Shown here one piece after another: positions 27,220 through 45,486 of a DNA stretch of 64,000 bases. Under the pieces are notes generated by a model. The model saw only the letters and a list, made by a program, of their open reading frames with translations, was not told the origin of the DNA and searched no databases. The translations under genes were made by a program, and so were the position numbers. Source of the DNA: Paracoccaceae bacterium (GTDB lineage Bacteria; Pseudomonadota; Alphaproteobacteria; Rhodobacterales; Rhodobacteraceae); contig JABBAP010000011.1 in the NCBI GenBank assembly GCA_018607905.1, positions 1 through 64,000 on the forward strand, written 5' to 3'. Positions within the stretch are counted from its first letter, which is position 1. The number at the start of each line of letters is the position of its first letter.

Positions 27220-27459
27220 TTAACCACGGCGTAGCACGAAAGGTGAACATTCAAAAGGAATTTGTTCAAAGAGCCTATTCACAAAAAACGGCCCCATCGC
27301 CGATAACGCAGACGCAACTTTTTCCGAGGCCATGTGATTCTGCGAAAATCCATGCAACATCAGCACCGGCGCGCCATTTCCGCCCACATGAACCGCGATT
27401 TTCGCCCGATCCACAGCCACAAACTGTTGCTTAAATCCCTCAATTCCAATGATCGGCAA
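27220..27459 (-). pseudogene. Truncated alpha/beta hydrolase (dehalogenase-like)
   Basis: The first about 53 residues, with FVAVDRAKIAVHVGGNGAPV then LMLHGFSQNHMASEKVASAL, match the N-terminal strand-loop of fluoroacetate or haloalkane dehalogenase-type alpha/beta hydrolases, including the H-G oxyanion-hole element. After that the protein diverges and stops at residue 79, so the nucleophile, acid and histidine of the catalytic triad are missing. It is a remnant of a gene about 280-300 residues long. It lies immediately upstream of ruvC. Confidence 0.65.
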
Positions 27460-27628
27460 CCTTCTGTCAAAACCTGACCATAGGTAAGCTTTTTAAATGT
27501 GGCAGATCAAGCGACCTAAATACGACACGTCATCCTGATAAATCGCCGTTTTACAAGCAATTAACCATCAAAAACGACCCCATGAGCGAGCTATGCAATT
27601 ACTTCATTTCGGGTATGCAAATTCAGCA

Positions 27629-27657
27629 TTTGAAACCCGACAAACTCCCACCTAAAT
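27629..27657 (+). promoter_or_regulatory. RpoH-like promoter of the first DUF1127 unit
   Basis: TTTGAA (27629-27634) and CCTAAAT (27651-27657) are separated by 16 bases, a fair match to the sigma-32 pattern CTTGAA / CCCATNT. Initiation would be about 65 bases before the DUF1127 start. A similar pair sits before the second DUF1127 gene, which strengthens the case. Confidence 0.45.
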
Positions 27658-27729
27658 GATCCTCAACAACCGACGTAAACACGTCAGAAACCATGCGCTC
27701 CTAGCGCCTCAAGACTAAGGAATATGAAG

Positions 27730-27939
27730 ATGGCTTTGGCTCCAAACACACGCACAGCACCATTCGGCGCGATTACAACATTGAACCTGATCAACATGTT
27801 CGAAGGCGCAGTGAAATCCGTTTCCGACTGGAACGCGAAACGCAAAACACACAACATCCTGTCCTCATTGACAGACCGCGAATTGGCAGACATCGGCTTG
27901 TCACGTGGTGACCTGCACGACATGCCTACAAAATTCTAA
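27730..27939 (+). CDS. DUF1127 small basic protein, CcaF1-like
   Basis: A protein of 69 residues. The C-terminal half NILSSLTDRELADIGLSRGDLHDM is the DUF1127 motif (L-x-x-L-x-D-x-x-L-x-D-I-G-L-x-R-x-x-I). In Rhodobacter sphaeroides the DUF1127 protein CcaF1 is an RNA-binding protein encoded directly upstream of CcsR small RNAs and made under stress sigma factors. The same layout is seen here: hairpins with CCTCCC loops follow 10 bases after the stop. The AAGG ribosome site favours the ATG at 27730 rather than the one at 27724. RNA binding here is by family inference. Confidence 0.8.
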   Translation: MALAPNTRTAPFGAITTLNLINMFEGAVKSVSDWNAKRKTHNILSSLTDRELADIGLSRGDLHDMPTKF

Positions 27940-27948
27940 TACCTAATT

Positions 27949-28073
27949 GGGTGCGTGGTTTTCCTCCCTGTTGACACGCACCTAACTTCGCGAACGGTTT
28001 GTTCTGATCCTCCCATCACAACAAACCGCGCAAACAGAAAAGACCGCAGTCCTCCCACTGCGGTCTTTTTTTG
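27949..28073 (+). ncRNA. Three CCTCCC-loop hairpins, CcsR/cuckoo-like small RNAs
   Basis: Three consecutive stem-loops each present CCTCCC. First: 8-bp stem (27950-27957 with 27975-27982), 17-base loop with CCTCCC at 27963-27968. Second: 9-bp stem (27995-28003 with 28020-28028) plus an inner 4-bp stem and an exact hexaloop CCTCCC (28009-28014). Third: 10-bp stem (28041-28050 with 28057-28066), exact hexaloop CCTCCC (28051-28056), then a T tract: this one is also the terminator. CcsR-type RNAs are processed from the transcript of a DUF1127 gene. Confidence 0.75.
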
Positions 28074-28097
28074 TCTCTTAAAACTGGGGTGATTGGC

Positions 28098-28421
28098 TTA
28101 CAGAACTTTTTCCTGAACAAACGCCATCACTGGATCACGCCACAACAATTTTGCAGCGATTTTGGATCCATCATCCCCGTCCGCCAGACGCGCAACTTTC
28201 TGATCAAATCCATCAACACCCAGTTCGTTTTCCATCACCACTTTGACCACCGTCATCGTGCCATACACAAACACCGCCATCACCGCGACTTTCATCCATG
28301 GCATCCGCACATTCACAGATAGCGCCCGTTTCAGCTTGTGGGTTTTGGTTGGTTTGAAATCAGGATCAACGCGCTGAAGGCGCTTATCAAACGATTTTAG
28401 ATTCTCGTCATTATGGGACAT
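28098..28421 (-). CDS. Small membrane protein, unknown function
   Basis: A 107-residue protein with an N-terminal hydrophilic part (residues 1-40, rich in Lys/Asp), one membrane segment at about 43-62 (MKVAVMAVFVYGTMTVVKVV) and a soluble C-terminus. No family recognised. It is convergent with the DUF1127-hairpin unit; the third hairpin could act as a terminator from both sides. About 200 bases upstream separate it from prmA and hold a perfect 12-base palindrome GCGCTTAAGCGC at 28453-28464. Confidence 0.6.
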   Translation of the reverse strand: MSHNDENLKSFDKRLQRVDPDFKPTKTHKLKRALSVNVRMPWMKVAVMAVFVYGTMTVVKVVMENELGVDGFDQKVARLADGDDGSKIAAKLLWRDPVMAFVQEKVL

Positions 28422-45192: not shown

Positions 45193-45423
45193 ATGGCACA
45201 CGCTCTTACACAACACGTTTCAATTCTTAACATCGCACAAACCACAGCGATCTCGCTTTGGGATGCTTTTGTTGCCCGTATGATCGTGTCCACAAAACGG
45301 GTTCAAATCGCACAATTGACCCAAGCGTTGAATCGCATGGACAGCCAGCACTTGGCGAGCATCGGCATCACGCGCTCCGAAATTCCGGACTACGCCAGCA
45401 TGGTCATTCGCCTACACGGCTAA
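45193..45423 (+). CDS. DUF1127-like small protein, second copy
   Basis: A 76-residue protein. The C-terminal LNRMDSQHLASIGITRSEIPDYA resembles the DUF1127 L-x-x-M/L-x-x-x-x-L-x-x-I-G-[IL]-x-R-x-x-I pattern. Longer N-terminal helix than the 27730 copy, few charged residues. A hairpin with a CCTCCC loop starts 23 bases after the stop, and an RpoH-like promoter precedes it. The two DUF1127 genes share layout but are not close in sequence. RNA-binding role by analogy only. Confidence 0.7.
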   Translation: MAHALTQHVSILNIAQTTAISLWDAFVARMIVSTKRVQIAQLTQALNRMDSQHLASIGITRSEIPDYASMVIRLHG

Positions 45424-45446: not shown

Positions 45447-45486
45447 AAAAACGGCCCCGTTTCCTCCCAGACGGGGTCGTTTTTCG
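45447..45486 (+). ncRNA. Single CCTCCC-loop hairpin and terminator
   Basis: A 14-bp stem (45447-45460 with 45471-45484; one wobble pair) closed by the loop TTCCTCCCAG with CCTCCC at 45463-45468, ending in a T tract. It doubles as the DUF1127 gene's terminator. Same anti-Shine-Dalgarno-like loop as the three hairpins at 27949-28073, so probably the same RNA family in a one-unit version. Confidence 0.65.

Follow-up and report, generated by a model that had tools for sequence, protein, structure and literature searches.

Cuckoo motifs, in the passages of PMC4504443 that describe them, comprise two to four hairpins in which the loop is conserved and the helices are variable, and CIN1 loci are presented in part of PMC10253847 as pairs of DUF1127 and CcsR-like RNAs. 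In Rhodobacter sphaeroides the CcsR RNAs are released by RNase E from the 3' UTR of ccaF1 and depend on an RpoHI/RpoHII promoter (passages of PMC10253847 and PMC8625941), while the CcaF1 protein binds RNA and influences CcsR maturation (passages of PMC10253847 and PMC8307010). NfeR1 of Sinorhizobium meliloti carries three redundant anti-Shine-Dalgarno (anti-SD) loops that block ribosome-binding sites, and its candidate targets are mostly concerned with ABC transport (excerpts of PMC10746234). In addition, AbcR1/2 of alphaproteobacteria combine anti-SD-type seeds with transporter targets, according to the same excerpts, and LysR-type (VtlR) control of abcR1 and a small-protein gene is described in part of PMC7486931.

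The locus studied here lies in a window of 64,000 nucleotides, by which we mean the whole stretch of DNA that was analysed, and consists of three hairpins behind a DUF1127 gene. Compared by description with passages on the cuckoo family and CIN1 (Reinkensmeier and Giegerich 2015), it agrees in the number of hairpins, the conserved loop, the variable stems and the DUF1127 neighbour, and as at CIN1 loci the gene adjoining the hairpins is short. The full anti-SD loop CCUCCUCCC, which on our reading of passages on relatives (PMC3927594, PMC10746234) is the cuckoo-defining word, is not present in the window loops, which hold CCUCCC. With CcsR1-4/CcaF1 of R. sphaeroides the locus shares anti-SD-loop hairpin RNAs behind DUF1127 and a 3' terminator, and the RpoHI/RpoHII promoter reported for CcsR in part of PMC10253847 may have a counterpart in an RpoH-like sequence; it differs in its loop (CCUCCC instead of CCUCCUCCC), its three hairpins, its other DUF1127 paralog and its ruvC/prmA neighbourhood. 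Similar to ar14/NfeR1, it has three consecutive anti-SD-loop hairpins of which the last is a terminator, and part of its set of genes led by GGGAGG resembles the transport targets of NfeR1; however, the loops are shorter and the array stands behind a coding gene, whereas NfeR1 has its own promoter (excerpts of PMC10746234). The likeness to AbcR1/2 extends to the anti-SD-type seeds and, putatively, to transporter targets and LysR-type control; the window holds no match at cut-off to any Rfam family. A literature search found no paper combining Amylibacter, to whose group the organism's lineage belongs, and sRNA.

Our analysis demonstrated that the locus is a real and conserved cuckoo-type cluster of anti-SD hairpins whose associated DUF1127 gene is not of the CcaF1 type, and that it differs from its known relatives in this non-CcaF1 DUF1127, in its shorter loops and in the extended loop core of hairpin 1. 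Judged from sequence comparisons, positions 27947-28071, in the 3' UTR of the DUF1127 gene, probably encode a trio of cuckoo-type small RNAs that would act by anti-SD silencing, in an array gained outside the ccaF1-CcsR locus.

The three-hairpin array and its upstream region

The locus comprises the following features:

27605 to 27618, minus strand: GCATACCCGAAATG, one base off the VtlR/LsrB box GCAT-N3-TG-N3-T, a pattern match and a lead only
27630 to 27657, plus strand: putative RpoH-type (heat-shock-sigma) promoter, TTGAAA-N15-CCTAAAT, read from the sequence
27724 to 27939, plus strand: DUF1127 gene, 71 aa, of the ruvC-linked type and not the CcaF1 type (PF06568, E 1.4e-11)
27947 to 27985, plus strand: hairpin 1, 11 bp with a 17-nt loop, GUUUUCCUCCCUGUUGA, that contains CCUCCC
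27990 to 28031, plus strand: hairpin 2, CCUCCC hexaloop on 4 bp, then a C/A mismatch, 9 bp, a bulge and 3 bp
28036 to 28071, plus strand: hairpin 3, 15 bp with an exact CCUCCC hexaloop, then a U-tract; intrinsic terminator

The array is compact, with 7 nt between the DUF1127 stop codon and hairpin 1, all three hairpins inside 125 nt, and CCTCCC words at 27963, 28009 and 28051. The fold of 27940-28073 consists of exactly three hairpins at -56.6 kcal/mol, compared to a mean of -26.5 kcal/mol (sd 3.1) in 200 shuffles (z = -9.6), and when the entire window was dinucleotide-shuffled 60 times, three CCTCCC loops never fell inside a span of 200 nt on the plus strand. Fold and shuffles thus confirmed a preliminary description of three consecutive hairpins behind a DUF1127 gene, two of them with an exact CCTCCC hexaloop; the range of 27949-28073 that it had assigned to them covers a real array, although its start falls 2 nt inside hairpin 1. 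When hairpins with a looped CCTCCC and a stem of 7 bp or more were counted on both strands, the shuffled windows (n = 60) contained on average 0.8 and at most 3 looped CCTCCC words, while the real window has four such hairpins, three in the array and the fourth at 45463. Since the window shows no excess of the word itself (18 occurrences against 25.5 expected), the unusual feature is the looped arrangement of CCTCCC and not its frequency.

A simple promoter scan of 27450-28120 gave no sigma-70-type match, and co-transcription of the array with the DUF1127 gene is therefore the simplest reading. On the plus strand of the same region hairpin 3 is the sole terminator-like site, hairpins 1 and 2 being without U-tracts. 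As a pattern match, TTGAAA-N15-CCTAAAT resembles the consensus of RpoH promoters, and a similar block (TTGAAA or TTGAAT, N15, CCTATCT or CCTAAAT) is present in five array-bearing relatives. The LysR-type box, likewise a pattern match, follows the VtlR/LsrB consensus GCAT-N3-TG-N3-T given in part of PMC7486931. In its strict published form the VtlR box does not occur in the window; of 30 regions upstream of this DUF1127 gene, 11 contained it, versus 2 of 30 control stretches; a box expression drawn from these loci occurred in 9/30 upstream regions versus 0/30 control stretches. LsrB/VtlR is described as restricted to Rhizobiales in a passage of PMC11975290. Half-sites of the VtlR/LsrB LysR-type-like form, GCTATGCAA and TGCATAGC, were also seen upstream of DUF1127 genes and arrays at many loci. 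Four PF06568 genes are present in this genome, two of which (L003, L004) have no such hairpin downstream, and a DUF1127 gene with leader attenuation, described in part of PMC12218461, is a case of a 5' leader.

The preliminary description had made its reading depend on covariation of the stems in related species, and the stems of both the terminators and hairpin 1 did covary around fixed loops. Among nine CCUCCC or CUCCC terminators 99.1% of cells were paired and 10 of 12 pairs had changed on both sides, and none of 500 shuffles attained their covariation score; because these sequences were drawn from three kinds of loci, the covariation partly reflects paralogs. Similarly, 7 of 9 pairs of hairpin 1 had changed on both sides in an alignment of seven sequences, in which the 15 loop positions of the core TTTTCCTCCCTGTTG were invariant. 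This alignment, in which a sequence common to several species is represented once, excludes the ruvC-linked (locus 1) copies of the congeners G004, G016 and G031, whose hairpin 1 shows one or two differences from the 15-nt core and, in G004 and G016, one unpaired stem position. Length-matched alignments were used, as MAFFT versions misplaced or gapped the hairpin arms. Hairpin 2 is restricted to the three-hairpin species, and its three sequences gave no covariation count. Moreover, the 15-nt core of hairpin 1, UUUUCCUCCCUGUUG, recurs at a second locus of the same genome, on contig C36 (locus 2), and every one of the six array genomes has the exact 15-mer at locus 2, the three with three hairpins having it at locus 1 too.

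Searching with a model of the terminators returned four strong matches in this genome (43.6-49.6 bits), all of which are members of the training set and adjoin DUF1127 or DUF1127-like genes. A fifth match of 26.7 bits (L196, G000:C47:42423-42455) is a CUCCC-loop terminator that follows a 22-codon ORF with no recognised DUF1127, indicating that DUF1127 is not the sole neighbour of such terminators, and the same terminator is present in G005 (L213, G005:C36:10288-10322). Six still weaker matches in this genome had no CUCCC at the match centre. Of 11 listed congener matches from outside the training set, 10 carried CUCCC in the loop.

With respect to described RNA families, nothing in the window matched Rfam at curated thresholds. 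ar14/NfeR1 (RF02344) aligned with the array from end to end at 43.0 bits (E 1.2e-6), which is below its gathering threshold of 58.8 bits, and CcsR1 (RF02791, gathering threshold 65.3 bits) was absent from the matches with E up to 10 in 27650-28200. Weak matches to MicC, Phe_leader, Thr_leader and similar families were taken as chance terminator likenesses. The words CCUCCUCCC and CCTCCTCCC occur at three places in this genome, none of them in a hairpin loop.

These results bear on two readings in which the CCUCCC loops would carry no message. That the CCTCCC words, 18 of which are spread over the window, came to be arranged in this way by chance is hardly credible, given that no shuffle reproduced the arrangement and that the array is conserved in relatives. 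It is also improbable that the hairpins represent a terminator and two RNA-stabilising stems in which CCUCCC is incidental: hairpin 3 is a good terminator, and many congeners have a single plain terminator at the array position (by eye), but the missing U-tracts of hairpins 1 and 2 and the fixation of the loops while the stems vary argue against it.

Distribution of the array and the ccaF1-CcsR locus

Relatives were selected by DUF1127 similarity. A protein search of 61 genomes gave matches in 39, and the loci of 30, all from one genus and one per genome, were read. The array was found at the ruvC-linked DUF1127 locus in 6 of these 30 congeneric loci, in the three-hairpin version in the genome studied here, G003 and G005 and in a two-hairpin version in G004, G016 and G031, so that the earlier suggestion of an RNA set distinct to this organism did not hold. 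The other 24 loci keep the ruvC-linked DUF1127 gene without the array; among these, a single weak CUCCC loop is seen in L017, and in four (L021, L024, L027, L033) the CUCCC word is present but unlooped. Among 68 named loci, a hairpin with CCTCC in its loop at a distance of up to 450 nt was seen in five and a CCTCCC array in four, all four being also among the 30 congeneric loci; the four best named loci belong to an Amylibacter MAG, Neptunicoccus sediminis CY02, a Rhodobacteraceae MAG and Amylibacter cionae m18, the two named species carrying the two-hairpin version. The fifth locus (L092), whose only such loop is a CCTCCA at a distance of 227 nt, was counted as chance. Since ruvC was recognised next to the gene in 96 of the 98 loci (30 plus 68, with 14 contigs common to both sets), the DUF1127 loci are orthologous places.

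In an 80-row RuvC tree the rows with an array grouped together with a support of 94/85, the group holding five of the six array genomes because the G005 sequence is too short, and in the DUF1127 tree the six array-linked proteins formed a group with a support of 91/80. As the six array loci among the 30 thus group on two trees, the array, confined in the genomes read to that lineage, was probably gained there, within the Amylibacter/Neptunicoccus group and behind a second DUF1127 paralog. A single gain would be the simplest history on these sequences, and loss in the other lineages may be an alternative one.

The ruvC-linked locus is not the only place of this kind in the genome. The DUF1127 tree, which comprises 73 columns only, placed the copy on contig C36 together with the CcaF1 type and the congeners' array-linked DUF1127 in one clade that was split from the ruvC-linked type with a support of 100/99 on a branch of 1.28. 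In line with this, the C36 locus is flanked by ORFs, read from their sequence as UvrD and Mrp, that match the flanks of the CcsR array of Cereibacter ovatus (68% over 523 aa and 65% over 208 aa), with transporter-like ORFs also lying between them. The order at the C36 locus (L212, L037) is a hairpin with the shared 15-nt loop core, a CUCCC terminator, the DUF1127 gene and a second CUCCC terminator. Both marks of the ccaF1-CcsR locus, a CcaF1-type DUF1127 and the uvrD/mrp neighbourhood, belong to contig C36 and neither to the window locus, where the neighbours are ruvC and prmA. The initial view of the window locus as CcsR/cuckoo-like was consequently upheld with regard to a cuckoo-type anti-SD array co-directional with a DUF1127 gene and had to be abandoned with regard to homology to the ccaF1-CcsR locus, given the 100/99 branch and the syntenic locus on C36.

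Altogether, DUF1127 or DUF1127-like loci with CCUCCC-type hairpins exist at three places in this genome, linked to ruvC, to uvrD/mrp and to an antiporter, respectively. A second unit in the window lies 17 kb downstream of the ruvC-linked array:

45193 to 45423, plus strand: divergent DUF1127-like ORF, 76 aa (PF06568, E 0.034, below cut-off and the only family found)
45447 to 45484, plus strand: 16-bp terminator hairpin with an exact CCUCCC hexaloop and a U-rich tail, behind the DUF1127-like ORF

A similar pair of ORF and hairpin precedes the same antiporter-like ORF in G003. At the same spot G031, G004 and G016 (L203, L204, L205) hold a CcaF1-like DUF1127 gene followed by an array of hairpins with CCUCCUCCC loops, of which G031 has at least six in tandem in units of about 94 bp, and the second unit of the window therefore looks like a reduced form; the DUF1127 tree cannot place its ORF (branch 4.1). 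Matches to ar14 with E up to 0.1 were obtained in 30 of 61 genomes, one of them over the cut-off (1/14 in a control search), suggesting that CCUCC-type arrays are present elsewhere in many congeners. Likewise, the CcsR1 model matched in 14 of 14 named genomes, four times over the cut-off, compared to 5/14 and none over the cut-off in its control search. Among the 14 best CcsR1-match loci, a CcaF1-type DUF1127 gene precedes the array in 12 (L135-L146) and none was detected in L147 and L148. At four further loci (L208-L211, in G010, G019, G015 and G029) two CcaF1-like DUF1127 ORFs were seen by eye between two CCUCCC-type arrays.

Candidate targets and proposed function

The pattern GGGAGG-N4-9-ATG occurs 90 times in this genome, versus 27 times for the reversed pattern, and upon reading of all 90 places 40 were found to lead plausible genes. 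Pfam assigned 11 of these 40 genes to solute-binding proteins (five DctP, three SBP_bac_5, two Peripla_BP_6 and one SBP_bac_1) and one to a TctA permease. A partial control with AAGGAG, in which 30 of 146 places were read, 22 were plausible and 20 were scanned, and which includes ribosomal protein genes (two unscanned genes also look ribosomal by eye), gave no solute-binding-protein domain among the 20 scanned genes (11/40 versus 0/20, one-sided exact p 0.007). A crude signal-peptide test was positive for 18 of 40 GGGAGG-led and 3 of 22 AAGGAG-led genes (p 0.011). This contrast between the two motifs represents support, not proof, for the targeting of solute-binding proteins, and it provides a simple list of candidate targets.

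A longer predicted pairing involves CAATAGGGAGGAAAA. In G004, G016 and G031 this sequence precedes the start of a gene whose product we read as a solute-binding protein of the TctC type, and it is complementary over 15 nt, with one G-U, to the loop core of locus-2 hairpin 1. The predicted pairing energy at this site is -23.5 kcal/mol versus -10.7 kcal/mol for a generic site. A search of the genome studied here at up to two mismatches did not recover this TctC-type site of 15 nt. Among non-self matches to the hairpin-1 complement, of which 33 of 68 were read, this genome has four with two mismatches, and one of these lies just before the start of an AMP-ligase-like gene (-19.8). A different sequence, CAACAGGGAGGTGAA, is complementary over 11 nt to the hairpin-1 loop and is present in all six array genomes (G000, G003, G004, G005, G016 and G031), lying at the 3' end of a coding ORF in the genome studied here (G000:C16:32611); as it does not stand just before a plausible start in any of the four genomes read (L234, L233, L254, L260), it was rejected as a target.

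The transcription, processing, targeting and stress control of the array, and the direction of its copying, we infer as follows. One transcript would begin upstream of the DUF1127 gene, probably at the putative RpoH-type stress promoter, and end at hairpin 3, and RNase E-type processing would free stable hairpins. By analogy with the described systems, the exposed CCUCCC loops would base-pair with Shine-Dalgarno sequences of the form GGGAGG and so prevent translation. The main targets would be mRNAs of periplasmic solute-binding proteins and catabolic enzymes, and stress would lead to lowered nutrient uptake; the longer seed of hairpin 1, UUUUCCUCCCUGUUG, would probably give some targets a higher affinity. 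The array itself was probably copied from a ccaF1-type locus, and a role in oxidative stress would be one carried over from R. sphaeroides.

Two alternatives give the neighbouring gene a different weight. If the hairpins mainly served the DUF1127 protein, as a platform for binding or autoregulation or as a protein sponge in the 3' UTR, silencing of mRNAs would be secondary. The RNA binding of CcaF1 and its influence on CcsR maturation (passages of PMC10253847 and PMC8307010) are in favor of such a role, as are the arrays adjoining DUF1127 genes of at least two subfamilies in this genome and a 15-nt loop core conserved further than SD pairing requires. We nevertheless regard it as unlikely, since the conserved word is an anti-SD sequence, many solute-binding proteins are found among the GGGAGG-led genes, the ruvC-linked DUF1127 gene is kept without the array in 24 of 30 congeneric loci, and the L196 terminator has no recognised DUF1127 neighbour. 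Less likely still is that the window holds the ccaF1-CcsR locus of this species, inherited vertically. Although the DUF1127 protein in front has 71 aa like the CcaF1 reported in part of PMC10253847 and the same direction, the loop motif is of the CcsR kind and ar14 aligns from end to end, the DUF1127 tree parts the ruvC-linked from the CcaF1/locus-2 type (100/99), and the uvrD/mrp-flanked locus that is syntenic with C. ovatus CcsR sits on C36 with its own DUF1127 gene and hairpins. Moreover, CcsR1-model matches in all 14 named genomes stand against CCTCCC arrays at only 4 of 68 named loci of the ruvC-linked DUF1127 gene.

An anti-SD array that was gained beside a non-CcaF1 paralog would have wider consequences. 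A non-CcaF1 paralog with its own array in one lineage means that the partnership of DUF1127 and hairpins is separable from one inherited locus, and the 24 of 30 loci that have the gene without the array offer a natural comparison, with and without, for the role of DUF1127 with these RNAs. A bolder proposal, which we consider possible but doubtful when all its parts are taken jointly, is that CCUCCC hairpins are copyable cassettes recaptured beside DUF1127 genes in a co-selected partnership of protein and RNA, that GGGAGG serves as a regulon code for shutting down the synthesis of solute-binding proteins, and that the 15-nt core is a dedicated high-affinity seed.

At locus 2, a conserved CAGTTCCTCCC was observed upstream of hairpin 1 (L035-L038, L045, L046). 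Next to it comes a short stem capped by a GCAA or GAAA tetraloop, and by eye the bases of this stem seem to covary; the CAGTTCCTCCC element may be a further anti-SD element in the leader of the locus-2 RNA.
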